IMG/VR virus record: IMGVR_UViG_3300023174_009192
Span: 1 to 24,653 of that record
DNA length: 24,653 nucleotides
Reading direction: 5' to 3' (one strand)
Source of the DNA: a virus
In this document: piece after piece, positions 1,226 through 18,967 of the stretch
Position numbering within the stretch: position 1 is the first letter of the stretch
Layout of the letters: each line of letters begins with the position of its first letter
Notes under the pieces: model-generated
What the model was told of the DNA's origin: nothing
Databases searched by the model: none
Seen by the model: the letters and a program-made list of their open reading frames with translations, nothing else
Made by a program: the position numbers and the translations under genes

Positions 1226-1663
1226 ATGAAGACGCTTTACACTTGGTACAGTATTTACTCACGTTGTGAAAAAATAGTAAAAGAACTTAAAGAAAAATAT
1301 ACTGATATAATGGACTATGAGATAGTTGGTATTAGCAGAGGCGGTCTTGTGCCTGCTGTAATTATTAGCAATCTTTTAGGCATACGTAAAGTATATTCAT
1401 TTGGGCTTAAAACATACAAAGACCAGGAGAAAGAAAGTGCTGAAATATATCAAATACCTTATCTAGCAAACAATAACAAAATTTTATTAATTGATGATAT
1501 CTCTGATACAGGTGAAAGCTTCGAAATAGTAAAGAAACTTTACAGTCATAAAGAACTTATAACTGTTTCTGTGTATATGAAAGAAAAGACAAAGTTTGCA
1601 CCAGATGTTGTTGGGGAGAATATTGATAATAATATTTGGGTGGTTTTTCCCTGGGAACCATGA
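1226..1663 (+). CDS. gpt: Xanthine/guanine phosphoribosyltransferase-like protein
   Basis: This is a 145-aa type I phosphoribosyltransferase. It should transfer phosphoribose from PRPP to a free purine base (guanine, xanthine or hypoxanthine) to give the nucleotide in the cytoplasm. The purine-PRTase motif G-I-S-R-G-G-L is at 35-41, and the PRPP-binding loop (L-L-I-D-D-I-S-D-T-G-E-S) is at 87-98. The C-terminus ends in W-V-V-F-P-W-E, the tail motif of Gpt-type enzymes that recognises the base. The length is normal for a small Gpt. It lies 13 kb from the deazaguanine operon but would act on the guanine that DpdA-type exchange releases. Exact base preference cannot be read from sequence. Confidence 0.85.
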   Translation: MKTLYTWYSIYSRCEKIVKELKEKYTDIMDYEIVGISRGGLVPAVIISNLLGIRKVYSFGLKTYKDQEKESAEIYQIPYLANNNKILLIDDISDTGESFEIVKKLYSHKELITVSVYMKEKTKFAPDVVGENIDNNIWVVFPWEP

Positions 1664-3128: not shown

Positions 3129-3731
3129 TCAATACTTTCTTGATGAAATAGGGTAACCAAGACCGGGTCTACAGTCATATTTATAGTCTGCACTACTTCC
3201 GTTCTTATCTACATAATGAAAGAATGCCTGAATTTGATAAGACCCTTCATTCACATCAAAAGCATCTCTCCAATGCTGTACTTCACATCCTTTGTATACA
3301 ATAGCATCACCAACTGAACACTTGGCAGTAATAGTTGCACCATCATTGTCTTTTATATGCATGTCCCAGCTATATCCTTGCACATTGGTAACATATTTGT
3401 ACCCCATACAGGCAGTGACACTTATCTCACATGCAGTTCGGTCTTTATGTATTGGTAGTGTGTCTCCTGGCTTATAGACACGATAATAAGAATATGTTGG
3501 GTAAAGATCTAGTTGTGTTATGTTTTCCACTTTTGGCTTTAATGATAATAAAATTGATTCCATTAATGTATCTGCATAAACTGCATGTGTACCTTCACGG
3601 TAAGAGACAGTTTCTGGAGAATATTCTAACACTTGTTTCATTAAAGCATATGTTGCTGCAGTCTCACAAATTTCCGGAGATACAAGCCCTAAAGCATGTG
3701 CATATTTTTTTTCATTAAAATTATAAGACAT
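3129..3731 (-). CDS. 2OG-Fe(II) dioxygenase-like protein
   Basis: This 200-aa protein fits the double-stranded beta-helix fold of 2-oxoglutarate/iron oxygenases. The iron ligands are visible as H95-x-D97 in the P-I-H-K-D segment and His153 in V-Q-H-W-R-D, after the G-D-A-I-V-Y strand at about 141-146. Such enzymes hydroxylate proteins, lipids or nucleic acid bases. Marine T4-like phages carry several, mostly of unknown substrate. It follows the sulfotransferase-like gene by only 2 nt, so the two are probably co-translated. I would not assign a substrate. Confidence 0.7.
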   Translation of the reverse strand: MSYNFNEKKYAHALGLVSPEICETAATYALMKQVLEYSPETVSYREGTHAVYADTLMESILLSLKPKVENITQLDLYPTYSYYRVYKPGDTLPIHKDRTACEISVTACMGYKYVTNVQGYSWDMHIKDNDGATITAKCSVGDAIVYKGCEVQHWRDAFDVNEGSYQIQAFFHYVDKNGSSADYKYDCRPGLGYPISSRKY

Positions 3732-5949: not shown

Positions 5950-7203
5950 TTATATATATTTATATCCAAAGGAAATGTCTACATTTGTAAGGCTTGTGCT
6001 AGCAATAAGACTGACTAATGTGCCTGCAGGTATGACACTATTTAATGTTATTGCGGGTGTAAAGGTAGGTGTACCGCCTGTAGCGTTTGCAGTTACAGCG
6101 GTAATGATTTGAATGTTATATGTCGCTCTAAAGAGAGGAATAGTACCAGCGTTTATTCTTGGAGAAGCAAATGTTGCCATGTTTTTAAGCGCGCCAAAAG
6201 TCGGTGATGTTATAAGACCTGTTACATCCAGGTTTCCACTTAATTGAGTAGTACCAGTTACATTTAATATACCCTGTATATAAGCATTCCCGCCTACTGT
6301 GAGATTACCACTTACTGCAGCATTGTTTGTTGCAGTGCTATTAGTACAGCTTAGATTACCTGTAACGGTTGTGTTTCTATTAATATAGAATTGGTTACTA
6401 CAAGCGATATAAGCTGGGTCGAGTTCAAATATAACACTCGCTGTGGTGGGTGTTATAATAAGTCCTGGACCAGGTGTATATGTAGCAGTATATAGTATTT
6501 GATTTATAGTTATTGATGTAAGACTGGATGTTGCAGTTCTGCCTACTATCTCACCAGGGCCTACATATTGAAGCACTGGAGGGTTAGTATTATTTGTTGA
6601 GTTAATATAGAGTGAGTTTTGATTTATATGTCTTAAGTGTTCAACGCCAATACCATTGCTTACAGATCCTAATGCAACACTGATAGGATTTGATGGTGCT
6701 GCTTTTGATATAGTTATACCATCTATTGTGTTGCTGTTTAAGTTTGTAACACCTACACCCTGTACTTGAAGATTTAACTTTAAATCTGAATCATAATAAA
6801 ATTGAGTTGAATTAACCAGTGTAGAAATATCAAATTTTGATAAGTCAGCTACAAGAGGTACATTACTTGTAGCAAAATTACTCCTGGCACTTAAGCTATA
6901 AATTGTTCTTGTATTGGCATCAAAAATTATATCGCCCACTTCAGCACCTTGGCTTGCAAATATATCATATGCTTCTTGACTGAATCCTGTGTTTAGATAT
7001 GATCCAAAAAGCGTTTCTACACGCCCTAGATTCTTTATGCTTACTGGTACACCACCAACTGTACCGTTTCCTACATATAGACGTTGAGTATCTGTACAGA
7101 AAGCTGGTTCACCTAAATTAAATGTAACTCCTGTTATATTTGCTGTTCTTCTCTGTGAATCTGTACCGTTTCTTATGATTATTTTTGTGATTTGATTGGC
7201 CAT
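5950..7203 (-). CDS. Tail fibre protein
   Basis: This is a 417-aa protein. Residues about 6-60 match the N-terminal phage tail-fibre domain with the pattern R-N-G-T...G-E-P-A-F-C-T-D-T-Q-R-L-Y-V-G-N-G, which is often found where a fibre attaches or at the base of major tropism proteins. The rest is Asn/Thr/Ser/Gly-rich repetitive beta-structure, including segments such as V-x-G-N-L-T-V-G-G-N-A near 300, typical of elongated trimeric shafts. The C-terminal 60 residues form a likely beta-sandwich tip. The adhesin-like gene follows. An AATAAATA late promoter lies upstream, which agrees with a virion gene. Confidence 0.8.
   Translation of the reverse strand: MANQITKIIIRNGTDSQRRTANITGVTFNLGEPAFCTDTQRLYVGNGTVGGVPVSIKNLGRVETLFGSYLNTGFSQEAYDIFASQGAEVGDIIFDANTRTIYSLSARSNFATSNVPLVADLSKFDISTLVNSTQFYYDSDLKLNLQVQGVGVTNLNSNTIDGITISKAAPSNPISVALGSVSNGIGVEHLRHINQNSLYINSTNNTNPPVLQYVGPGEIVGRTATSSLTSITINQILYTATYTPGPGLIITPTTASVIFELDPAYIACSNQFYINRNTTVTGNLSCTNSTATNNAAVSGNLTVGGNAYIQGILNVTGTTQLSGNLDVTGLITSPTFGALKNMATFASPRINAGTIPLFRATYNIQIITAVTANATGGTPTFTPAITLNSVIPAGTLVSLIASTSLTNVDISFGYKYI
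5957..5964 (-). promoter_or_regulatory. Possible late promoter (TATAAATA) before the adhesin gene
   Basis: An exact octamer on the minus strand lies 21 nt before the ATG at 5935 and overlaps the 3' end of the fibre gene. The spacing differs from the usual 5 nt here, so support is weaker. Confidence 0.35.
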
Positions 7204-7966: not shown

Positions 7967-10231
7967 ATGGCTATGAGTTCGCAGATTTCTGTTAAAAAAC
8001 GTGATGGTAAGTCAGAGAAATTTAATATAGAAAAAATTAATAAAGTTATTAGTTGGGCAACAGAGGGCATTTCTGGAGTTAGTTTATCAGAGATAGAAAT
8101 AAATGCTAACTTGAACATGGCAGATAATATTTCTACAAAAGAGATACACCAGGTGTTAATTGAATCAGCTGCAAACTTAATTTCTTTAGAAAAACCAAAT
8201 TATCAATTTGTTGCAGGTCGTCTTCTCAATTATCAATTGCGCAAGGATGTGTGGGGTGGTAAGCATGCACCCAGATTGATTGATGTAATCTTTACTGGGT
8301 TGAGAAAAGAGATTTATGATAAAGCAATTTTAGAAAAATATACAGAAGATGAAATAAACAAGATTGGTGAATTTATTGATCATGATCGTGATTTTCTTTT
8401 TACATATGCTGGTATTAAGCAGCTGTGCGACAAGTACTTGGTTAAAAATAGGGTCACAGATGTAATTTTTGAAACACCTCAATTTGCTTATATTCTCATT
8501 GCTGCATATGCTTTTATAAATTACCCCAAAGAAACAAGACTAGAATATGTTCGCAGGTTTTATAATGCAATATCAAGGCATAAAATAAATTTACCAACAC
8601 CTATTATGGCAGGTGTACGTACCAACTCTAAAAGCTATGCAAGTTGCTGTTTGATAGGTGTAGAGGATAATAAAGAATCAATTACAGCATCTGGTACAGC
8701 TGTCTCTATTGCTACTGCCAGTCGGTGTGGCATTGGTATAGACATTTCCAAAATAAGAGCAATTGGAGCTCCCGTCAATAACGGTGAAGTGGTACATACA
8801 GGTGTTATTCCATTTTTAAAGATCTTCGAAGCTTCAGTCAAAGCATGGCAACAAAATGGATTGAGAGGTGGTTCAGCTACTACCAATATTCAGTGGTGGC
8901 ATTATGAGATAGAGGATATTGTGGTTCTCAAGAACAACGCAGGGACCGATGATAATAGAGTGAGAAAACTTGATTATACGGTGGGTATGTCTAAGCTATT
9001 CTATGACAGAGTATTAAAAGACGAGCAAATCACACTCTTCTCTCCACATGAAGTGCCTGAATTGTGGGAAGCTTGGGGTACACCTAAGTTCGATAAGATC
9101 TATAAAGAACATGAAGAGAGCAGAAAAATAAAGCAAAAGAAAAAAATATCAGCACGAAAATTATTTGGGTTGATAGTCAAAGAGCGTGTTGAGACAGGCA
9201 GAATCTATATTCTCAATGTGGATACAGCAAATGAGCATGGTGCATGGTCTGATAAGGTAACCATGAGTAACTTGTGCACAGAAGTAATTCACCCCACCAT
9301 TCCCCTTAATGATTATAATGACCCGGAAGCAGAGATAGGCATGTGCATCTTGTCTGCTATCAACATGCTTGAAATAAAAGATTGGAAAGATCTGGAAAAG
9401 ACATGTGATCTTGTTGTTAGGTTTTTGGAAGAAATTATTGACATTCAAACTTATTTCAATAAAGCTGCAGCTAATTTTGCCAAAAAGCGCAGAAGCTTGG
9501 GAATAGGTATTACTAATTTTGCTGCATTTTTAGCTAGAAATGAAAAGAAGTATTCTGATAAATCAGCTTTGGCTCTTGTGGATGAATGGATGGAGCATTT
9601 TCAATATTATCTGCTCAAATCAAGCCTAACTCTCTCTAAGGAAAGAGGCCGTTGTGACAAGTTTGATAAAACTAAATATGCTAAAGGCATATTGCCTGTG
9701 GATACCTACAAGAGAAAAGTTGATGATGTCGTCAAGAGAAAGCTTTCTCTTGATTGGGAAGCATTAAGAAAAGAAATTAAAGAACATGGACTAAGACATT
9801 CAACTTTGTCGTGTGTTATGCCTTGTGAATCTAGTTCTGTTATTCAATGCTCTACCAATGGTATTGAACCAGTCAGATCATTAATAACGTATAAAACCTC
9901 TAAAATGGGGAAGCTCCCTGTTTTAGTGCCAGGCATAGGTAAATATGAATCCAACTATCAACTTGCTTTCTCCTTTGAGAATAACACAGACATCATTAAT
10001 ATAAACGCTGTTATTCAGAAGTACTTGGACATGGCTATTTCTACTAATATCTATTACAACTATGCACATTATCCCAATAATGTATTGCCTGATAGCAAAG
10101 TTATGAAAGAACTCATGTATGCATATAGCATGGGTCTTATTTCTCTGTATTATAATAATACTGATGATGGTGACAAGGAACAGTCCATGAATAAAGAATC
10201 AGATTGCACTAGTGGAGCCTGCAAACTATAA
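7967..10231 (+). CDS. nrdA: Ribonucleotide reductase class Ia, alpha subunit
   Basis: This 754-aa enzyme reduces ribonucleoside diphosphates to deoxyribonucleotides. It has an N-terminal ATP-cone (about 6-95) for allosteric activity control, then the ten-stranded barrel. The active-site residues follow E. coli numbering closely: Cys227/228 (C225 in E. coli), the S-N-L-C-T-E-V motif with Asn435, Cys437 and Glu439, and Cys460 in G-M-C-I-L-S. A Tyr-Tyr pair in the I-Y-Y-N segment is for radical transfer. The C-terminal C-T-S-G-A-C-K-L matches the redox-active C-x4-C tail that receives electrons from thioredoxin or glutaredoxin. nrdB follows after 17 bp. The length is standard, and it appears complete and functional. 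Confidence 0.97.
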   Translation: MAMSSQISVKKRDGKSEKFNIEKINKVISWATEGISGVSLSEIEINANLNMADNISTKEIHQVLIESAANLISLEKPNYQFVAGRLLNYQLRKDVWGGKHAPRLIDVIFTGLRKEIYDKAILEKYTEDEINKIGEFIDHDRDFLFTYAGIKQLCDKYLVKNRVTDVIFETPQFAYILIAAYAFINYPKETRLEYVRRFYNAISRHKINLPTPIMAGVRTNSKSYASCCLIGVEDNKESITASGTAVSIATASRCGIGIDISKIRAIGAPVNNGEVVHTGVIPFLKIFEASVKAWQQNGLRGGSATTNIQWWHYEIEDIVVLKNNAGTDDNRVRKLDYTVGMSKLFYDRVLKDEQITLFSPHEVPELWEAWGTPKFDKIYKEHEESRKIKQKKKISARKLFGLIVKERVETGRIYILNVDTANEHGAWSDKVTMSNLCTEVIHPTIPLNDYNDPEAEIGMCILSAINMLEIKDWKDLEKTCDLVVRFLEEIIDIQTYFNKAAANFAKKRRSLGIGITNFAAFLARNEKKYSDKSALALVDEWMEHFQYYLLKSSLTLSKERGRCDKFDKTKYAKGILPVDTYKRKVDDVVKRKLSLDWEALRKEIKEHGLRHSTLSCVMPCESSSVIQCSTNGIEPVRSLITYKTSKMGKLPVLVPGIGKYESNYQLAFSFENNTDIININAVIQKYLDMAISTNIYYNYAHYPNNVLPDSKVMKELMYAYSMGLISLYYNNTDDGDKEQSMNKESDCTSGACKL

Positions 10232-10248
10232 GTATATAATCAATTGCT

Positions 10249-11313
10249 ATGAAGAGTGTTCTCAATTTAAAAAATATAGATTCTGCCAAACAACCGTTGT
10301 TTTTTGGTGAAGATCTTAATTTGCAACGTTACGATAAATTTAAGTATCCTATCTTTTTTGAACTCTTCAAAAAGCAAGAAGAGTTCTTCTGGTGGCCTCA
10401 TGAAATAAGTCTGCAAAAAGACCGTGGTGATTACAAAGAACTAACAAATGAAGAACGGTTTGTATTTGATACCAATCTGAAATTTCAAACTCTTGGCGAC
10501 AGCATGCTTTCAAGGTCCATTCATTCCTTAAAAGATCATGTCTCAAATCCTGAACTTGAGATATGCATGAACACATGGCAGAGATTTGAAGGTATTCATA
10601 GTTATAGCTATTCTTATCTTCTCAACAATGTTCACCCAGATGCATCAGCTTTCTTTGATAGTATCATGGAAGACAAGGAAATAGTAAAGCGAGCTTCACT
10701 CATACGTGAAAACTTTGATAAAATTCTTAGCTCCAGTAAAGATAAGGATTCCAAGGAAAGCATTTTCAATTGTATCCTAGCAGTTAATTGCATGGAAGGT
10801 CTTGTTTTTTATGTTAGTTTTGCTTGTTCATTTTATTTTGGATACAGAGGCAAGATGGAGGGCAATGCTAAGATTATAAAATTTATTCAAAGAGATGAAG
10901 CGTTGCATTTTGCAACAACACAAAATCTTATAAAGATATTAAAAGAAGAAGACAAGGAAGGGTTTACATCTGTGGTAAAAAAGAATGAAGATAAGATTTA
11001 TGAAGTTTATGAAAATGCTGCTAAGAGTGAGATGGAATGGGCACAGTATCTGTTTAGTAAAGGTAGCCTATTGGGTCTTAATGCAGATGTACTAGGAGGT
11101 TATTCTAAATGGCTCTGTGATACGAGGTTGCGCTCTCTCGGTTACAAGAAGATCTTTAACCAGAAAGAAAATCCTATTTCAGGCTGGTTAGATAGTTATC
11201 TTGATAGCAGCAAGGTGCAGGTAGCGCCACAAGAGACAGAGATTGGTGCTTATAAAATTGGCGCTCGTGATACATCTATTTCTGACAAAGATTTTAATGA
11301 TATAGAACTATGA
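10249..11313 (+). CDS. nrdB: Ribonucleotide reductase class Ia, beta subunit
   Basis: This 354-aa subunit carries the di-iron tyrosyl radical. Ligand positions match E. coli almost residue for residue: Asp84 in T-L-G-D-S, Glu114 and His117 in R-F-E-G-I-H-S, and the radical Tyr121 in S-Y-S-Y. Later iron ligands lie in the N-C-M-E-G region near 180-185 and in the R-D-E-A-L-H segment near 215-220. The enzyme works with NrdA encoded just upstream to supply dNTPs during phage DNA replication. Its stop overlaps the next ATG (ATGA), so the small gene at 11310 is likely co-translated. Confidence 0.97.
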   Translation: MKSVLNLKNIDSAKQPLFFGEDLNLQRYDKFKYPIFFELFKKQEEFFWWPHEISLQKDRGDYKELTNEERFVFDTNLKFQTLGDSMLSRSIHSLKDHVSNPELEICMNTWQRFEGIHSYSYSYLLNNVHPDASAFFDSIMEDKEIVKRASLIRENFDKILSSSKDKDSKESIFNCILAVNCMEGLVFYVSFACSFYFGYRGKMEGNAKIIKFIQRDEALHFATTQNLIKILKEEDKEGFTSVVKKNEDKIYEVYENAAKSEMEWAQYLFSKGSLLGLNADVLGGYSKWLCDTRLRSLGYKKIFNQKENPISGWLDSYLDSSKVQVAPQETEIGAYKIGARDTSISDKDFNDIEL

Positions 11314-11841: not shown

Positions 11842-14754
11842 TTGTTTGGATGTATTAGCAACAGGGCTTGCGAAGGCTGGCTCACCACCCACACCATTGT
11901 TTTCTCCATTGCTGTCTCTGTAGCTTTGCAGCGTACTAATTGCTTGCTCTCTCACTTGTTTGTTGGTTTGCTTGAGTGTGAGTGGCAAGTTTGCAAACAT
12001 GTGACTATGCTCTGGTATCATGATGCTGTCGTCATCTCTTCCTGAACCATATATTGCAAGTGGCATTGCTACAGCTGCTACACCACCTTTGCCAGGCACA
12101 AGCCCTGCATCAGATCCTTTAATACAACCTACACCGGGAATTCCTGTGCCACCCACAGGGCCTGTTGTCAGAAAGGAGCCAAAGCCGGATCCTAATACTG
12201 TTGTATCAAAACCTAATGTATTTCCAGTACTGGATGCAAATACCTTTACGTCTCCTGCTCCTGGGCCAGGAGCTGGTGCGCCCACCTGTGATGCAAGAAC
12301 AGGTATAGGTCCTGCAGCAACAACGGGTCCTGCAGAATTTGCTCCAAGAGGTGTTCCTGGGGCAATATACCCTATAGTTATTCCACCAGGTATAAACCCT
12401 ATGGGTAATCCGAGTGGAAGACGTCCACAAGGTACCAGTGCATCAGTATATCCTATATAAGGTGGACCTACAACCCCAGGTACTGGATTAGGCATCCAGC
12501 CTGAGCCTAGTGGGTTCTTGATAGGGAAGTTAGAAAGTGGTATGCCATAACCAATCACCTTGCCATTGCTATTGGAAGGATCAGTTGTAGCTGCACCATA
12601 GCAAAGCGTCTTGTTTGTATTTTGTATTTCCATTGGAGCTGTAACATGCTGTACGTGTAGTTCGCCTTCAAAATAACCACCACCCAACACAATTGAGTTT
12701 TTAGATACACCTAGAGAGCTATCAATTAATACTTGACGCTTATCTCTTTGACGTATTGATACAACATCGCCGGTAATAGAAACCCGCTTTCCACCATCAA
12801 TATTAATTTCATTCTCTGAGCCTACATTTACTTGCTCACCAGCTACATTGGTAATTGTACCTGAAATATTAACCAGACCAAAGCTTTTTATATTAACACC
12901 ACCAGCGCCTACAAGCAAATTATATCGATTACTTACATTGAGTGTATAATTGCCTCCGGGAAGATCTGTTACATGCACATATTCGTGCACAGGTGTAGGT
13001 TTTCTGTTCAAAAATGTACCATATTCAGCAATAACAACTTCTGAAGGTTCCATTTTGCCTTTATCATCTATGCGTATGGAACCAAAATCGTTCATTATAG
13101 TACCAATGGTTTCAAACTTGTGTTTTGATATTTCTATAATTTCGTTGCCCCCTAATCCTAATTGTTTTTCTATTTCAGATAGTCGTGCAATGTTGTTGTT
13201 AAAAAATTGATTTATGAGTTCTTCTTTAGTTTCTTTACTCCAGTTACCATCTTGTGATGACGGCGAAGTTCCTCTACCACCACATGCCGGGCAAGGCGTT
13301 CGTCCTAAAAAACTGCTTGGGGTTGAGTTGAAATTACTACCATCTACTGCTCCACCCAATTGAGTGACTGGTTGTGTGTTAACAGGCGTACCTGCAACAC
13401 CTACATATTTTAATGACTTATCAAAAAGATTTGTTTGACCATATGCATAATCACCACCTGCATCACTGAAAGATGTTTTAATAATATTATTGAACGAGTT
13501 ATTATAAGAGATATTATATATAAAATATGTATCTGCGCTTCCTCTACAAACAGGGCATGCAACTGGGGTGCCTACTTTATTTTGTTTTGTGGATGAGAAT
13601 TTAAGCAAATTGTTTTTAAATCTATCTGCTCTCTTAGTATCAAATAATTGTTTAACGTCAGCTAATTCTCTTACTATTCCCTTCCACTGTGAAGCAAGTG
13701 TACCATCTATTTTGCCTATTTTTTTATAAAAATTGCCTACAGTGTTTAAGTCGTAGTCGCGTCCTGTGTATTCATTTCTATCTCCCTGTACTGTGAGAAA
13801 CAAATCTTCCAATACTAGCTTTTGATCATTCTTAGTTGCAAGTTCAATATTTGTGAAATTGTTTAATTCTTTGAAAGATCCAGAATAATGAGACAGTTTA
13901 ACTGCTTCTTTATTGTCAGTATTGACAAAGGCTAGGGTACCGCCTTTTTGATTTATGATGTATTTGTTTCTATAGGTTTCTGCATCTAAAGGTGGGTCAG
14001 TTTCAGTTGATCGTTTATTTTCAAAATCGCCTGGGTAATCTACTCCTGAATCACAACGTGTTTTATTGCCATCAACATCTACTGCAGACCCTGCACTGTA
14101 TATACTACTCCAGTCTGCTTCACCAAAAGAAGATGCAAAATAAACAGGCTTGAGAGGGTCACCTGCAACAAAAAATACCCAGAGGTGGGCACCAACACAT
14201 GGTATGGCGAAAGAACCTTTAGCACTGTTGCTGTAGATGTCTGGTGTGTAGTTATAACTAAATTTGTTTACATTATTAACACTTGTTTCATCTGGATTAT
14301 TAAATGCATCTTTTAATTTAAAATAATTTATATCAAATACATTACCAGGCTTCTCACCAATGTCATCGTAGTTTTGAGAATATTTTGTAAGTGTTGATTG
14401 GTTGATATTAGTATTTGTAGTATTAGAGAGAAATTTTGTCTTCTTAGATGCATCACTTATGCTGCCAGCTGCTATAGATGCATTAAATCTGCCACTTGTG
14501 TTTTCACCTACAAGAGGGCTGGCACATTCAGCCCAAGGCATTATTTTTTTTAAATCATCTAAAATGTCTGTTAAGTCAGAGTTTAAGTTTTTCCCGACAA
14601 ACTTAAATCTCTTGTCTCTCTTTATTTCATTCCAACCAGAATAAATAGATGGAGAAACATGAGGTACAAATACTTTTACTCGGCCTCTTTTTAGCGGATC
14701 ATTGTTTTGTATAACAATACCCAAGTAGTTTCCATAATAACTGGATTCTTTCAT
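11833..14754 (-). CDS. gp5-like baseplate hub / needle protein without lysozyme domain
   Basis: This is a 973-aa protein. The N-terminus (about 5-35, with D-P-L-K-R-G-R-V-K-V) and the segment at about 178-210 (a G-A-H-L-W-V-F-F strand, then G-D-P-L-K-P-V-Y) are the OB-fold pattern of T4 gp5 and related spike proteins. A region with two CxxC-x-G knuckles follows at about 400-405 and 488-493. Then comes a beta-helical needle part (about 590-700) with repeating N-V/I-x-G strands, and a long Pro/Gly-rich C-terminal region with a final H-S-H motif. T4 gp5 has an internal lysozyme domain, which is missing here. A separate GH24 gene lies at 2361. The role would be the central membrane-piercing hub of the baseplate. 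It is divergent from the deazaguanine operon. Confidence 0.75.
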   Translation of the reverse strand: MKESSYYGNYLGIVIQNNDPLKRGRVKVFVPHVSPSIYSGWNEIKRDKRFKFVGKNLNSDLTDILDDLKKIMPWAECASPLVGENTSGRFNASIAAGSISDASKKTKFLSNTTNTNINQSTLTKYSQNYDDIGEKPGNVFDINYFKLKDAFNNPDETSVNNVNKFSYNYTPDIYSNSAKGSFAIPCVGAHLWVFFVAGDPLKPVYFASSFGEADWSSIYSAGSAVDVDGNKTRCDSGVDYPGDFENKRSTETDPPLDAETYRNKYIINQKGGTLAFVNTDNKEAVKLSHYSGSFKELNNFTNIELATKNDQKLVLEDLFLTVQGDRNEYTGRDYDLNTVGNFYKKIGKIDGTLASQWKGIVRELADVKQLFDTKRADRFKNNLLKFSSTKQNKVGTPVACPVCRGSADTYFIYNISYNNSFNNIIKTSFSDAGGDYAYGQTNLFDKSLKYVGVAGTPVNTQPVTQLGGAVDGSNFNSTPSSFLGRTPCPACGGRGTSPSSQDGNWSKETKEELINQFFNNNIARLSEIEKQLGLGGNEIIEISKHKFETIGTIMNDFGSIRIDDKGKMEPSEVVIAEYGTFLNRKPTPVHEYVHVTDLPGGNYTLNVSNRYNLLVGAGGVNIKSFGLVNISGTITNVAGEQVNVGSENEINIDGGKRVSITGDVVSIRQRDKRQVLIDSSLGVSKNSIVLGGGYFEGELHVQHVTAPMEIQNTNKTLCYGAATTDPSNSNGKVIGYGIPLSNFPIKNPLGSGWMPNPVPGVVGPPYIGYTDALVPCGRLPLGLPIGFIPGGITIGYIAPGTPLGANSAGPVVAAGPIPVLASQVGAPAPGPGAGDVKVFASSTGNTLGFDTTVLGSGFGSFLTTGPVGGTGIPGVGCIKGSDAGLVPGKGGVAAVAMPLAIYGSGRDDDSIMIPEHSHMFANLPLTLKQTNKQVREQAISTLQSYRDSNGENNGVGGEPAFASPVANTSKQST

Positions 14755-14789: not shown

Positions 14790-15620
14790 ATGCTAATGAA
14801 AGTATCACATGAAACACCTATATCTCTACTCAATGATACATTAAGATTTAAAGACTTTAATTACAACGACTTTGACTATGCATTGGTGCATTTGTTTGAT
14901 AAATATCCTGAATATTATAAATTTTATAAAAATTCAAGACATGTCTATAACAGAGAAGTGCTTTTAGATAACTCTATTTTTGAATTGGGCAAAGCATTTG
15001 ATTCAGATAAATTTTTACAAGCAGCTATTGATCTGCAGCCAAACATGTTCATCGTACCGGATGTACTGGAAGATAGTTCAGCTACAGTAGACAGCTTCAA
15101 GAAATGGCAGAGTGGTAGGATAGATGCAGTAAAGGAAGTGTGTATTACAAAGGCTATAGGGGCTGTGCAAGGAAAGAATTGGCATGAACTCAAAGAATGT
15201 TACAAGTTTATGTCAGATAATGCTGATATGATTGCAATCAGTTTTGATTTCAGTTATTATCAGATCACAGGTGAAGGCAAGTCGCATCTTGAAAAATGGT
15301 GCTCTGGACGTCAGCGTTTTATTAACGACCTTATAAATACTGGAGTATGGAATTGGAACAAACCTCATCACTTACTGGGATGTTCATTAGCAAAGGAGTT
15401 TAGATATTATGTGGATAGAAATATTTGGAATATTGTTAGTTGTGATACCAGCAATCCCATTGTTGCTGCTATTCATGGATTAAAGTATGATGCAGATTAT
15501 GGTCTGCAGACCAAACCATCAACTAAATTAGCTGACTTAATTGAACATGTTTTTACATCTGATCAACTTGATTTAGTAGAGCATAATACTAAAATGTTCA
15601 AGAAAATTATACGTAGATGA
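14790..15620 (+). CDS. dpdA: DpdA-like DNA guanine transglycosylase (TGT superfamily)
   Basis: This 276-aa protein has the ordered motifs of the tRNA-guanine transglycosylase barrel: L-L-D60-N-S-I-F-E-L (compare D-S-G-G-F-Q), V-P-D91-V-L-E-D, A-I-G-A-V-Q-G-K (122-129, compare G-I-V-Q-G-G), L-G-C-S-L-A-K-E (196-203) and S-C-D219-T-S-N-P (compare D-C-V-x-P-T-R with the nucleophilic Asp). The Cys-cluster zinc site of tRNA enzymes is absent. DpdA proteins swap guanine in DNA for a 7-deazaguanine base. With queF and a formyltransferase in the same operon, DNA rather than tRNA is the likely substrate. The stop overlaps the next ATG. ATG at 14796 is an alternative start. The DpdA subfamily is not resolved. 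Confidence 0.85.
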   Translation: MLMKVSHETPISLLNDTLRFKDFNYNDFDYALVHLFDKYPEYYKFYKNSRHVYNREVLLDNSIFELGKAFDSDKFLQAAIDLQPNMFIVPDVLEDSSATVDSFKKWQSGRIDAVKEVCITKAIGAVQGKNWHELKECYKFMSDNADMIAISFDFSYYQITGEGKSHLEKWCSGRQRFINDLINTGVWNWNKPHHLLGCSLAKEFRYYVDRNIWNIVSCDTSNPIVAAIHGLKYDADYGLQTKPSTKLADLIEHVFTSDQLDLVEHNTKMFKKIIRR

Positions 15621-16186
15621 GACCTTGGGTGACTTTTTTCTCACAAACTGGTACTGAGATATATGATCTTAGTAAAGTGCTTGGTATATATCCTGATTGT
15701 ATCGTAACAAATAAACAAAATCATAAAACTACTAATGTTGGTCTATTTGAAACAACTAAGTTTAGATCTCAGAAGCTTAATGAAAATATTTGGATACAAT
15801 TACCACAGAAGCCGACAGTGGAGGATTATAAGAAGACTCTAAAAAACTTTAAGAACCCAGTCATCACCTTGCATGGATATTTAAGAATTATACCTAAGGA
15901 AATTTGTGAAAACTATGAAATGTATAATTTACACCCTGGGTTGATTGATAGATTTCCTGCATTGAAGGGGTTTAATCCACAAGAGAGAGCTTTTACCGAC
16001 GGGTATAAGTTGGCGGGGTGTGTAATACATAGAGTTATACCTGGTATTGATGAGGGTGAAGTATTGATGAGCCAAGGAGTGAGTATTGAGGGCATGAACC
16101 TTGATGGTGTTTATGGTGCTTTGCGTGATACAGCACTTGATCTCTGGAGAAGTTTCTTTACAGCTTATAAAATCCTAGAACGTTAA
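15617..16186 (+). CDS. dpdN: PurN-like formyltransferase, candidate preQ1 formyltransferase (DpdN-type)
   Basis: This 189-aa protein has a formyl-transferase N-terminal fold. The catalytic triad of PurN (N106, H108, D144) is present as Asn104 and His106 in Y-N-L-H-P-G and Asp145 in P-G-I-D-E-G. A G-Y-L-R-I-I-P segment (87-93) matches the folate-site strand. It would move a formyl group from 10-formyl-tetrahydrofolate to an amine. Phage formyltransferases beside queF and dpdA have been proposed to formylate the aminomethyl group of dPreQ1 in DNA, and I infer the same here. A role in purine synthesis (true PurN) is less likely, because the genes around it concern deazaguanine. It overlaps dpdA by 4 bp and is followed after 1 bp by guaC. 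Confidence 0.8.
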   Translation: MRPWVTFFSQTGTEIYDLSKVLGIYPDCIVTNKQNHKTTNVGLFETTKFRSQKLNENIWIQLPQKPTVEDYKKTLKNFKNPVITLHGYLRIIPKEICENYEMYNLHPGLIDRFPALKGFNPQERAFTDGYKLAGCVIHRVIPGIDEGEVLMSQGVSIEGMNLDGVYGALRDTALDLWRSFFTAYKILER

Positions 16187-16187
16187 T

Positions 16188-17147
16188 ATGGATATATCGT
16201 TACACTATGAGAATGTTTTTCTCAAGCCAAATTTTAATTCTATTCAATCTAGATCTGAAATAGATTCAAGTGTAATGTTTTGTGGGCATGAATTTAAGCT
16301 TCCTGTAGTGCCTGCTAATATGAAATGCTGTGTTGATGCAGATACTTGTAAGCTATTAGATAAACATGGTTATTTTTATATTATGCATAGGTTCGATGAA
16401 GATATACAGCATTTTGTACGATATGCTAATTCACAAAAATTTAATACTATATCCATGAGTGTTGGTATTCAGCAGAAAGATCAAAATTTTATTACTACTA
16501 TTTCACAGAGTATGATGAGAGTAGATTTTATAACTATTGATGTTGCACACGGTCACCATTCCAAAGTAGCAGATCAAATTGCGCACATTAGACAAGTATT
16601 GCCAGCTGCTAGGATTATTGCTGGCAATGTAGCAACATTTCAGGGTGTGGAGTATTTACATAGTGTTGGTGCAGATGCTGTGAAGGTTGGAATTGGTGGT
16701 GGTTATGCTTGTACTACAAAAGACAAGACAGGGTTTACATATCCTATGTTTAGTTGTATTATGGAGTGCGCTAAGGACAGAGATATACCGGTTATTGCTG
16801 ACGGGGGAGTGCGTTGTAATGGTGATATTGCGAAAGCTATTGTTGCAGGGGCCAGTATGGTGATGTGTGGATCTATATTTGCTGCTTGTTCTGATAGCCC
16901 TGCACCTCTTGTAAAAGATGCAAACGGTCGACGCTATAAACAGTACTTCGGATCTGCTAGTGTGCACAATAAGATTGAAAAGAAAAATATTGAAGGTACA
17001 ATGAAGCTTATGGATACAGATACTTTTACATACCTGGAGAAAATGGAAGAGATAAAGCAAGACTTACAGAGTGCAATTAGCTACGCTGGTGGTTGCAATC
17101 TCGGTGCTTTAAATTTAAGTAAAGTGGCTTACGGGGTAAGATTATGA
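16188..17147 (+). CDS. guaC: GMP reductase
   Basis: This 319-aa IMPDH/GMPR barrel lacks the CBS insert of IMP dehydrogenase. Motifs include L-P-V-V-P-A-N-M (38-45), I-T-I-D-V-A-H-G-H (115-123), I-A-G-N-V (144-148), K-V-G-I-G (166-170) followed by the catalytic Cys175 with Thr177 and K-T-G-F, A-D-G-G-V-R (204-209), E-Y/Q-Y-F-G-S-A-S near 252-258 and a C-terminal Q-S-A-I-S-Y-A-G-G (294-302). All fit the bacterial GuaC2-type enzyme, which converts GMP to IMP with NADPH and releases ammonia. It is unusual in a phage. Placed between the formyltransferase and DUF1599 gene, it may rebalance the guanine nucleotides affected by base exchange. Confidence 0.88.
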   Translation: MDISLHYENVFLKPNFNSIQSRSEIDSSVMFCGHEFKLPVVPANMKCCVDADTCKLLDKHGYFYIMHRFDEDIQHFVRYANSQKFNTISMSVGIQQKDQNFITTISQSMMRVDFITIDVAHGHHSKVADQIAHIRQVLPAARIIAGNVATFQGVEYLHSVGADAVKVGIGGGYACTTKDKTGFTYPMFSCIMECAKDRDIPVIADGGVRCNGDIAKAIVAGASMVMCGSIFAACSDSPAPLVKDANGRRYKQYFGSASVHNKIEKKNIEGTMKLMDTDTFTYLEKMEEIKQDLQSAISYAGGCNLGALNLSKVAYGVRL

Positions 17148-17491
17148 ATAAAGACGATATTGTTAAATATGTAGAAAAGAATTTTCCTGAAACATGTAAG
17201 GAGTTTCAAAAAATACAAGCTGAGCTGTATGAAACATTTTGCAAGAAACAGTTTGATTATGGTCCAGGTAATATTTCTCTTGGGTCTGATTTAGTAAAGC
17301 AAGAAGATAGATTTGCTGCTATATCTGCCATAGTGGTGCGACTCAATGATAAAATTCAGCGTTTAATTAATTTGGTGCTAAAGAAAAAAGCAATGAACTC
17401 TGCAAATGAACCAGTTATGGATGCATTTAGGGATTCAGCAGTATATGGCATTATTGCAGAAATAGTATATAATGGTAAGTGGGGCAAATGA
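17144..17491 (+). CDS. DUF1599-type (nucleotide-modification-associated) protein
   Basis: This 115-aa helical protein has D-Y-G-P-G-N (38-43), V-R-L-N-D-K-I-Q-R-L (65-74) and N-E-P-V-M-D-A-F-R-D-S-A-V-Y-G (88-102). These are the conserved blocks of the DUF1599 family, which comparative genomics has linked to phage nucleotide-modification loci. The acidic/Arg pattern resembles a small helical nucleotide-binding or pyrophosphohydrolase-like bundle, but the reaction is not known to me. It overlaps guaC upstream and the kinase downstream, each by 4 bp in an ATGA overlap, so the stoichiometry of the three may be coupled. Confidence 0.75.
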   Translation: MNKDDIVKYVEKNFPETCKEFQKIQAELYETFCKKQFDYGPGNISLGSDLVKQEDRFAAISAIVVRLNDKIQRLINLVLKKKAMNSANEPVMDAFRDSAVYGIIAEIVYNGKWGK

Positions 17492-18066
17492 TATTTACTT
17501 TTACTGGTCCACAATGTTCAGGCAAGACTACTCTGCTAAAGATGTGTAAAGAATACTATGGTTCAAAGCTTTTTTACATAGATGAAGTCACTAGACTAAT
17601 TAAACGTTGGCATAATTGTGACATAAATGAAGAGGGTGCAAATGATGTTACGCAGACATTAATTCTAAATAAAGAATTTGAAAATTTGTTTTATAATTAC
17701 AAAGGATTTAACTTTCAAGGCATATTGCATGATCGCTGCTTGATGGATGGAATGGTATATACAAGTTATTTTGCTAGAGATAAGTTAAATGATTTTCCTG
17801 TATCTAATAGTTTGGGTTTACTGTATTATACAAATTATATTAAAAAGTATGATCATATTTTCTATCCAAGCCCTCATGATGTTCCGCTAGTTGATGATGG
17901 TGAGAGAAGTGTTAATAAAGAATTTAGAGATGCAATTATTGATTTGTATGAGAATTTCTGGTTGTCAGATGAAAGATTAAAAGGAAAGGTAACTATTTTA
18001 AAAGGAACAGTGGAAGAACGCATGGAAGCAATTAAAATAAAACTTAATGAACACGGAATTAGATAA
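17488..18066 (+). CDS. P-loop kinase / AAA_28-type ATPase
   Basis: This 192-aa protein starts at the ATG at 17488; a GTG at 17479 lies inside the previous gene. Walker A is G-P-Q-C-S-G-K-T-T (7-15). A D-R pair (82-83) in H-D-R-C resembles the D-R-Y/S-x motif of nucleoside monophosphate and nucleoside kinases. The D-D-G-E-R-S segment (136-141) looks like a lid. The family resembles the NadR-type/AAA_28 kinases found in phage nucleotide-modification regions. Its substrate could be a (d)GMP, a deazaguanine (deoxy)nucleoside or something unrelated. Overlap with queF by 20 bp and with the DUF1599 gene by 4 bp makes it an integral member of the operon. Confidence 0.75.
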   Translation: MIFTFTGPQCSGKTTLLKMCKEYYGSKLFYIDEVTRLIKRWHNCDINEEGANDVTQTLILNKEFENLFYNYKGFNFQGILHDRCLMDGMVYTSYFARDKLNDFPVSNSLGLLYYTNYIKKYDHIFYPSPHDVPLVDDGERSVNKEFRDAIIDLYENFWLSDERLKGKVTILKGTVEERMEAIKIKLNEHGIR

Positions 18067-18967
18067 CAGTAATATATCAAAGCATCTTGGTAAAATAACA
18101 GGGTATAAGTGCACCTATGACCCCACACTCTTGGTTCGTGAGCCTAGAGCTAATAACAGAAAGCATTTAGGTATTAGCGATGAAAACCCTCCCTTCTATG
18201 GTTATGATGTGTGGAATGCTTATGAAGTGTCTTGCTTGACGAATGAAGGAATGCCTATTGCTGCTATTGCTAAGGTTATTTATCCTGCTACAAACAAATA
18301 TATTGTTGAGTCAAAGTCTATCAAGCTCTACATGAATTCGTTTAATATGGAGACATATCAAGGTAATATTATTAATGTATTGCAACAATTGGAAGCTGTA
18401 ATGGAGGCTGACTTATCTAAATTATTAGAGACAGAAGTTAAAGTTTGTGTCAGGCTTACAAAAGCTATTGATGATACGTTGTATTACCCACCTTTATTTT
18501 CTACTAGCTTATATCCTACACTTGAAAACAACATTGATGTTACCTCGATTAAGTCGAGAGGGTACAAAGAAGATCCTTCTCTCCTTGGCTGGACTAAAGA
18601 TGACTCCAATAAAGTACAACGCTTTCATTCAGCACTATTAAAAAGTAATTGCAGGGTCACATCTCAACCAGACTGGGGGGATGTTTATATTCACTACAAA
18701 GGACCTTATCAACTTAATCCAACCTCTTTATTACAATACATTGTCTCATTTAGAGATGAATGTCATTTCCATGAAGAAATTTGTGAAACTATTTACAAGC
18801 GTTTATACGATTTAGCTAAACCTGAAGAGCTCATGGTATCTTGCCTATATGTTAGGCGTGGTGGTATTGATATTAATCCTATTAGAACTAATAGTCAGGA
18901 GCTTTTAAAGCAGAATAGTGCTATGTGGGACAAGTGGAAGTACTTTACTAAAACTGTTAGACAGTAA
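18047..18967 (+). CDS. queF: QueF, NADPH-dependent 7-cyano-7-deazaguanine reductase
   Basis: This 306-aa, two-domain (E. coli-type) tunnelling-fold enzyme reduces the nitrile of preQ0 to the aminomethyl of preQ1, using two NADPH. The E-S-K-S-I-K-L-Y-x-N-S-F family motif is at 88-99. The C-terminal domain has catalytic Cys202 in L-K-S-N-C, Asp209 in Q-P-D-W-G and the S-F-R-x-E-x-x-F-H-E-E block (233-244). A late Y-V-R-R-G-G-I-D-I-N-P (268-278) is also family-diagnostic. The E. coli protein has 282 residues. It is the last gene of the operon and stops 1 bp before the convergent gene at 18968. No queC, queD, queE or folE is in the window, so preQ0 must come from the host or from elsewhere in the phage. 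Confidence 0.96.
   Translation: MNTELDNSNISKHLGKITGYKCTYDPTLLVREPRANNRKHLGISDENPPFYGYDVWNAYEVSCLTNEGMPIAAIAKVIYPATNKYIVESKSIKLYMNSFNMETYQGNIINVLQQLEAVMEADLSKLLETEVKVCVRLTKAIDDTLYYPPLFSTSLYPTLENNIDVTSIKSRGYKEDPSLLGWTKDDSNKVQRFHSALLKSNCRVTSQPDWGDVYIHYKGPYQLNPTSLLQYIVSFRDECHFHEEICETIYKRLYDLAKPEELMVSCLYVRRGGIDINPIRTNSQELLKQNSAMWDKWKYFTKTVRQ

Follow-up and report, generated by a model that had tools for sequence, protein, structure and literature searches.

The virus record IMGVR_UViG_3300023174_009192 of IMG/VR, taken here in its entirety as the analysed window (24,653 bp), is a fragment of a T4-like phage in which a gp23 major capsid protein and a prohead protease were found. Flanked by a baseplate-type gene on one side and by minus-strand structural genes on the other is an operon of six plus-strand genes, A to F, for a DpdA-like guanine transglycosylase, a PurN-like formyltransferase, a GMP reductase (GuaC), a DUF1599 relative, a P-loop kinase, and QueF (Table 1). 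The gene content points to guanine modification in the phage's own DNA, and across related viruses the most constant partner of the transglycosylase is the kinase. The junctions are tight, with ATGA overlaps between A and B (15617–15620), C and D (17144–17147), and D and E (17488–17491), a 1-bp gap between B and C, and a 20-bp overlap between E and F (18047–18066). The D/E overlap takes the kinase to start at that ATG; the GTG at 17479, chosen by the open reading frame finder, is probably not used, because ATG is the start in most homologues. An earlier note on this DNA had described this layout in a T4-like phage and had named the dpdA-like, PurN-like, and queF genes, and each of these statements agrees with what we found. 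The identical gene set and order was seen again in dozens of viral contigs; therefore, the arrangement is not due to chance.

Table 1 Genes of the operon and other features of the 24,653-bp window
Feature	Position	Strand	Basis
A, DpdA3-type guanine transglycosylase, 276 aa	14790..15620	+	AlphaFold2 model, Foldseek, homology, invariant residues
B, PurN-like formyltransferase, candidate preQ1 N-formyltransferase (DpdN-like)	15617..16186	+	Formyl_trans_N 1.4e-15
C, GMP reductase (GuaC), optional member	16188..17147	+	IMPDH/GMPR 7.9e-56; NF003966 339 bits
D, DUF1599 (nucleotide modification associated domain 1) relative	17144..17491	+	PF07659 via relatives; phrog_1485
E, P-loop (deoxy)nucleoside or nucleotide kinase	17488..18066	+	AAA_28 4.1e-12
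F, QueF, preQ0 nitrile reductase (preQ1-forming)	18047..18967	+	QueF_N 1e-33 + QueF 8.2e-23
Xanthine/guanine-type phosphoribosyltransferase	1226..1663	+	NF006613 82 bits, under cut-off 138
Ribonucleotide reductase large subunit	7967..10231	+ (operon's strand)	PF02867 4.5e-124
Ribonucleotide reductase small subunit	10249..11313	+	PF00268 2.5e-54
TATAAATA copies (T4-type late promoter motif)	706, 3178, 4781, 5957, 7234, 11536, 11637, 15332, 19494

The Pfam, NCBIfam, and PHROG libraries gave no named function for the product of gene A. This protein is 46% identical to gp056 of Campylobacter phage CP220 and 43% identical to a protein of Flavobacterium phage vB_FspM_immuto (immuto) annotated as a DNA guanine transglycosylase (E = 6e-51 and 2e-56), and we take all three to belong to the subfamily DpdA3. 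A profile search of A against Protein Data Bank (PDB) chains returned no match and an hhalign comparison with Escherichia coli tRNA-guanine transglycosylase (TGT) alone was marginal, so a fold model was needed. The AlphaFold2 model, built from 54 relatives, has a mean predicted local distance difference test score (pLDDT) of 91.3 and a predicted template-modelling score of 0.89. In Foldseek, its best matches are tRNA-guanine transglycosylases (E = 9.4e-9, template-modelling score 0.69), and the DNA preQ0 insertase DpdA (7ui4) is also matched (5.7e-5). The model thus falls within the TGT superfamily, the placement for which the earlier note had named a structure check, and supports A as a DpdA-like protein by fold. 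Across 73 sequences, residues Asp60, Asn61, Ser62, Asp91, Gly128, Gly197, and Asp219 are invariant, and Gln127 is kept in 71. We read Asp60-Asn61-Ser62, Asp91, Gln127-Gly128, Gly197, and Asp219 as the acid, base-recognition, and nucleophile set of TGT, a correspondence drawn from motifs and visible in part in the alignment with the E. coli enzyme. The net charge of A was uninformative as a sign of DNA versus nucleotide binding; TGT and other DpdA proteins are just as acidic.

A TGT fold could also mean that the genes make queuosine precursors and that A is a tRNA-guanine transglycosylase improving host or phage tRNA. QueF and the preQ0 genes are common to queuosine synthesis, and phages that carry such genes but lack DpdA have been suggested to boost queuosine (PMC6884629). 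However, A is closest to proteins of Campylobacter phages, whose DNA carries 2'-deoxy-7-amido-7-deazaguanosine (dADG; cited in PMC6884629), or to a protein annotated as acting on DNA; it falls short of E. coli TGT by about 100 aa; and queuosine synthesis has no place for a formyltransferase. We therefore consider a role in tRNA very improbable.

Gene F encodes both QueF domains. Its full-length score against the TIGR03138 equivalog model (264.9 bits) lies under the cut-off of 293.45, and no other family is closer. QueF and the amidotransferase QueF-L are hard to separate on overall similarity (PMC6884629). The NADPH motif ESKSIKLY, Cys202, and Asp209 are kept in all 59 aligned relatives with data, and because these elements are intact, the sequence argues for a nitrile-reductase QueF that makes preQ1 (7-aminomethyl-7-deazaguanine) rather than for QueF-L. 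As a separate observation, QueF in L006, L007, L008, L009, L019, L023, and other loci is only 32 to 36% identical to that of the window, yet their DpdA is more than 70% identical, so in this clade QueF looks to have been swapped in place for that of another lineage.

Of the genes for making the substrate of QueF, preQ0 (7-cyano-7-deazaguanine), none (folE, queD, queE, or queC) was found in the window. Among 18 larger related viral contigs, folE, queD, and queC each occur in nine, and all three are also present in immuto and CP220; in G004 (157 kb), a queE-type radical-S-adenosylmethionine (radical-SAM) gene lies close to queD. The preQ0 is probably made by the phage from genes elsewhere in its genome, because larger relatives carry folE, queD, and queC. 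The earlier note had left the choice between host preQ0 and distant phage genes; the relatives mostly favour the latter, and the former may apply to G009 (L055, 146.8 kb, possibly incomplete), which has DpdA3 with no folE, queD, or queC match and may draw preQ0 from its host. G010 (L071) likewise has DpdA3 without folE, queD, or queC matches, and a radical-SAM gene stands directly upstream of its DpdA.

Genes C, D, and E stand between the formyltransferase and QueF genes. Gene C scores 339.3 bits against NF003966 (cut-off 344), which is the top of all models and well over those for IMP dehydrogenase, and its relative in L059 clears the cut-off at 350.6 bits; by these profile scores C is probably a GMP reductase and not an IMP dehydrogenase. 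Gene D matches phrog_1485. PF07659 leaves the window protein itself unmatched and is matched by 13 of 19 relatives at E < 1 (best 1.8e-4). The model of D is a helical bundle (pLDDT 88.7) with no fold match in the PDB at E < 1. We also considered D as a MazG-like nucleoside triphosphate pyrophosphatase and rejected this, as no MazG profile matched and no PDB fold match fell below E = 1. Gene E, beyond its AAA_28 domain, has profile matches to deoxynucleoside kinase, NadR kinase, and thymidylate kinases, and by these matches is a P-loop kinase between those groups.

Several observations concern the regions around D and E homologues. In L014, a 330-aa repeat-rich open reading frame (12688–13680) lies on the opposite, minus strand between the DUF1599 and kinase genes, and L024 and L027 have a gap of similar size there. 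Among phage records, the nearest DUF1599 relative (45%) is in Microcystis phage Mel-JY01 (L092, 8791–13929), about 4 kb from GuaB/GuaC-type, SAM synthase, and glycosyltransferase genes and with no DpdA3 match; this region possibly serves another base modification. Campylobacter phage CC_R7 (180 kb; L089, 3001–3537) has two kinase homologues and no DpdA3 match, and according to its paper it carries a queE gene (PMC12398825).

In order to compare the partners of DpdA3, constancy was counted in 88 distinct loci that came from a search with A only and extend 4.5 kb or more downstream. Of these loci, 87 have the kinase, 82 QueF, 65 the formyltransferase, 52 DUF1599, and 23 GMP reductase. The A tree shows one change for the kinase, three for QueF, four for the formyltransferase, and about nine gains or losses for GMP reductase. 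The kinase is therefore the most constant partner of DpdA, and guaC is optional. Contig L071 has no member of the kinase family. In L042 and L046, the intervening genes are missing and A and the kinase overlap tail to head. Among 75 new loci found with the kinase as seed, 65 contain A and the remaining 10 end just upstream. Overall, at least 567 related stretches were confirmed. The genes present divide the loci into three types: formyl-preQ1 (A, B, E, and F, with C and D optional), preQ1 (A, E, and F), and one that lacks QueF (A and E), to which CP220 belongs. The kinase is common to all three; therefore, its role goes with the DpdA3 step rather than with any particular base. When 50,697 phage records were searched with the window kinase, only Campylobacter phages and immuto matched. 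A more distant kinase used as the query matched 89 Streptomyces phages, so the wider kinase family is not confined to DpdA phages.

The formyltransferase bears on which base would be installed. Residues Asn104, His106, and Asp145 of B are intact in 57 of 57 relatives, and B is 44% identical to immuto gp204, which adjoins the immuto DpdA. B could be a plain purine-synthesis PurN, in which case the DNA base would be unformylated preQ1; PurN-type genes do occur in cyanophages (phrog_9240), and the catalytic residues of PurN are those kept in B. However, B reaches only 52.3 bits against the PurN equivalog model, far below the cut-off of 150.1, and Glu replaces an Asn in 53 of 57 relatives in the loop with which PurN holds the phosphate of its substrate; together these argue against a plain purine-synthesis role. 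Moreover, in a larger pool of 106 loci, which includes loci from kinase or formyltransferase searches and is hence biased toward those genes, the formyltransferase is always accompanied by QueF (81 of 81 loci, with QueF alone in 18), counts that are non-independent, as the link rests on few changes on the A tree. We regard the plain PurN as unlikely.

Taken together, we consider it likely that the operon serves to produce a modified guanine, N-formyl-preQ1 or preQ1, and to place it in the phage's own DNA. FolE, QueD, QueE, and QueC, whose genes probably lie in another part of the phage genome, would provide preQ0, which QueF would reduce to preQ1. The formyltransferase would then formylate the aminomethyl group, either on the base or once it has been inserted, and the DpdA3-type enzyme would exchange guanine for formyl-preQ1 or preQ1, replacing some or all of the guanines in the virion. 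GMP reductase, the DUF1599 protein, the kinase, and the phosphoribosyltransferase encoded upstream would handle the nucleotides consumed and released. The modified virion DNA would resist host nucleases; the restriction systems of hosts are the target of such modification (PMC6884629). The dependence among the formyltransferase and QueF counts weighs against this proposal, as do three further points: the identity of the base in this phage group is read from its genes, B could have a substrate other than preQ1 or its deoxynucleoside dPreQ1, and the window is a fragment, so that the remaining genome, with its possible preQ0 genes, lies outside our view. The operon and its broad function had been proposed in the earlier note and are supported by the gene content; that note had missed the kinase as the most constant partner and the optional nature of guaC.

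The constancy of the kinase bears on where DpdA3 acts. One possibility, which we rate as evenly balanced, is that DpdA3 swaps guanine in DNA after replication, with the kinase, GMP reductase, and phosphoribosyltransferase recycling the guanine, which would be set free in large amounts, or feeding GTP to FolE. Known DpdA proteins act on DNA, and their mechanism is described as post-replicative (PMC12707154; PMC6884629). HD or MazG hydrolases were looked for in 15 large related viral contigs and none was found, which favours exchange in DNA. In addition, Crippen (2019) reportedly saw no dADG phosphates during Campylobacter phage infection, and Cui et al. (2023) reportedly concluded that insertion is post-replicative; we count both for exchange in DNA and the former also against exchange on nucleotides. 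However, post-replicative exchange leaves unexplained why the most constant partner is a kinase of deoxynucleoside, NadR, or thymidylate type and not a guanylate kinase, and why the DpdA genes of phages 9g and Dp-1 lack an annotated kinase neighbour.

These features would be accounted for if DpdA3 were a nucleotide transglycosylase that swaps the base on dGMP (or on deoxyguanosine or another guanine nucleotide), the adjacent dedicated kinase phosphorylated the product toward the triphosphate, and a polymerase inserted it, building guanine-free DNA. Nucleotide hydrolases would supply dGMP and remove dGTP, and GMP reductase and the phosphoribosyltransferase would dispose of the released guanine. 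We hold this scheme tentatively, as credible but somewhat doubtful. It would explain complete replacement and a kinase more constant than QueF. Consistent with it, the kinase persists with formyltransferase and QueF, with QueF alone, or with neither, at the cost of one change on the A tree; it overlaps A directly in L042 and L046; the window kinase query is limited to Campylobacter phages and immuto among the phage records; and distant DpdA homologues have kinase or hydrolase neighbours (phiST, MA9V-3, CP220, and immuto, below). However, enzymes of the TGT family are known for acting on polymers; most members show no enzyme that would remove dGTP, with the DUF1599 protein lacking a MazG fold match; and the 15 large relatives are without HD and MazG hydrolases. 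Likewise, L071 has no kinase family member, CC_R7 has kinases and no DpdA, 89 Streptomyces phages have distant kinase relatives, and the kinase assignment is weak in BSP7 and Youna2. If the scheme is true, a monomer-acting enzyme of the TGT family would explain total guanine replacement as opposed to the fractional modification by other DpdA enzymes.

Elsewhere in the window, the phosphoribosyltransferase is a possible partner in guanine salvage, and phosphoribosyltransferases stand near DpdA in L059 and immuto as well. The T4-type late promoter motif TATAAATA occurs nine times against 3.4 expected, several copies being directly upstream of genes, and no copy was found immediately upstream of the operon. 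Sigma-70 promoters and terminators in the window were not above shuffled sequences, and scans of the window for tRNA and Rfam families were empty. On the minus strand, the protein at 3129–3731 matches phrog_2954 (labelled ferrochelatase, 5.8e-44), and that at 5950–7203 has an Mtd_N (major tropism determinant N-terminal) domain (1.2e-9).

The operon marks a large environmental group, much of it T4-like, whose DNA likely contains a formylated or aminomethyl deazaguanine. DNA of this kind is expected to withstand many restriction enzymes, and the operon's enzymes could serve in making base-modified DNA. Moreover, the near-constant kinase makes the mechanism of total replacement by DpdA3 testable with two purified proteins.

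Among the closest known systems is that of immuto (NC_055915), which has the same order of DpdA, formyltransferase, kinase, and QueF as the window and also carries folE, queD, queE, and queC. Unlike the window, no GMP reductase or DUF1599 gene was found in immuto, which has a family A polymerase and a PRA-PH-type hydrolase two genes upstream of DpdA. Cui et al. (2023) reportedly proposed a formylated dPreQ1 (fdPreQ1) and a formyltransferase DpdN, with formyltransferase, DpdA, and QueF together as in the window; we know of no mention there of the kinase pairing. The set of DpdA, formyltransferase, kinase, and QueF thus has a precedent in immuto; what is new is the pairing of kinase and DpdA3 with its bearing on the mechanism of total guanine replacement.

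In the T4-like Campylobacter firehammervirus CP220, whose DNA contains dADG, the DpdA gene is followed by a related AAA_28 kinase gene; neither QueF nor formyltransferase lies beside DpdA, and an HD-AAA_33 protein is encoded upstream. Campylobacter phages are described as highly modified by dADG in work cited by PMC6884629. The DpdA proteins of 9g and Dp-1 are TGT-family enzymes of DNA guanine exchange with adjoining preQ0 genes and no kinase annotated beside dpdA. About a quarter of guanines are modified in 9g. In Dp-1, the figure is 1.7% (PMC6884629).

Distant DpdA homologues have other neighbours. In Cellulophaga phage phiST (L326, 4576–6738), genes for a MazG-type pyrophosphohydrolase, a small protein, an AAA_18 P-loop protein, and a distant homologue of DpdA stand in a row ahead of a DNA polymerase III alpha gene, and in Chryseobacterium phage MA9V-3 an AAA_18 P-loop protein is encoded directly upstream of the distant DpdA homologue. 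Bacillus phage BSP7 (L324, 5336–8692) and Weizmannia phage Youna2 (L325, 5393–8725) encode a P-loop-like protein of 183 to 187 aa, DpdA, and a family A DNA polymerase in genes with overlapping ends; as a kinase, the P-loop-like protein is a weak match (dNK 0.013, hhalign probability 66%). Phages with Z genomes (2-aminoadenine) use PurZ, MazZ, and DatZ, that is, a made-to-order monophosphate, kinases, and hydrolysis of canonical deoxynucleoside triphosphates. They resemble the scheme of base exchange on nucleotides, although the base is different and the base-forming enzyme non-homologous; here a transglycosylase would make the nucleotide.

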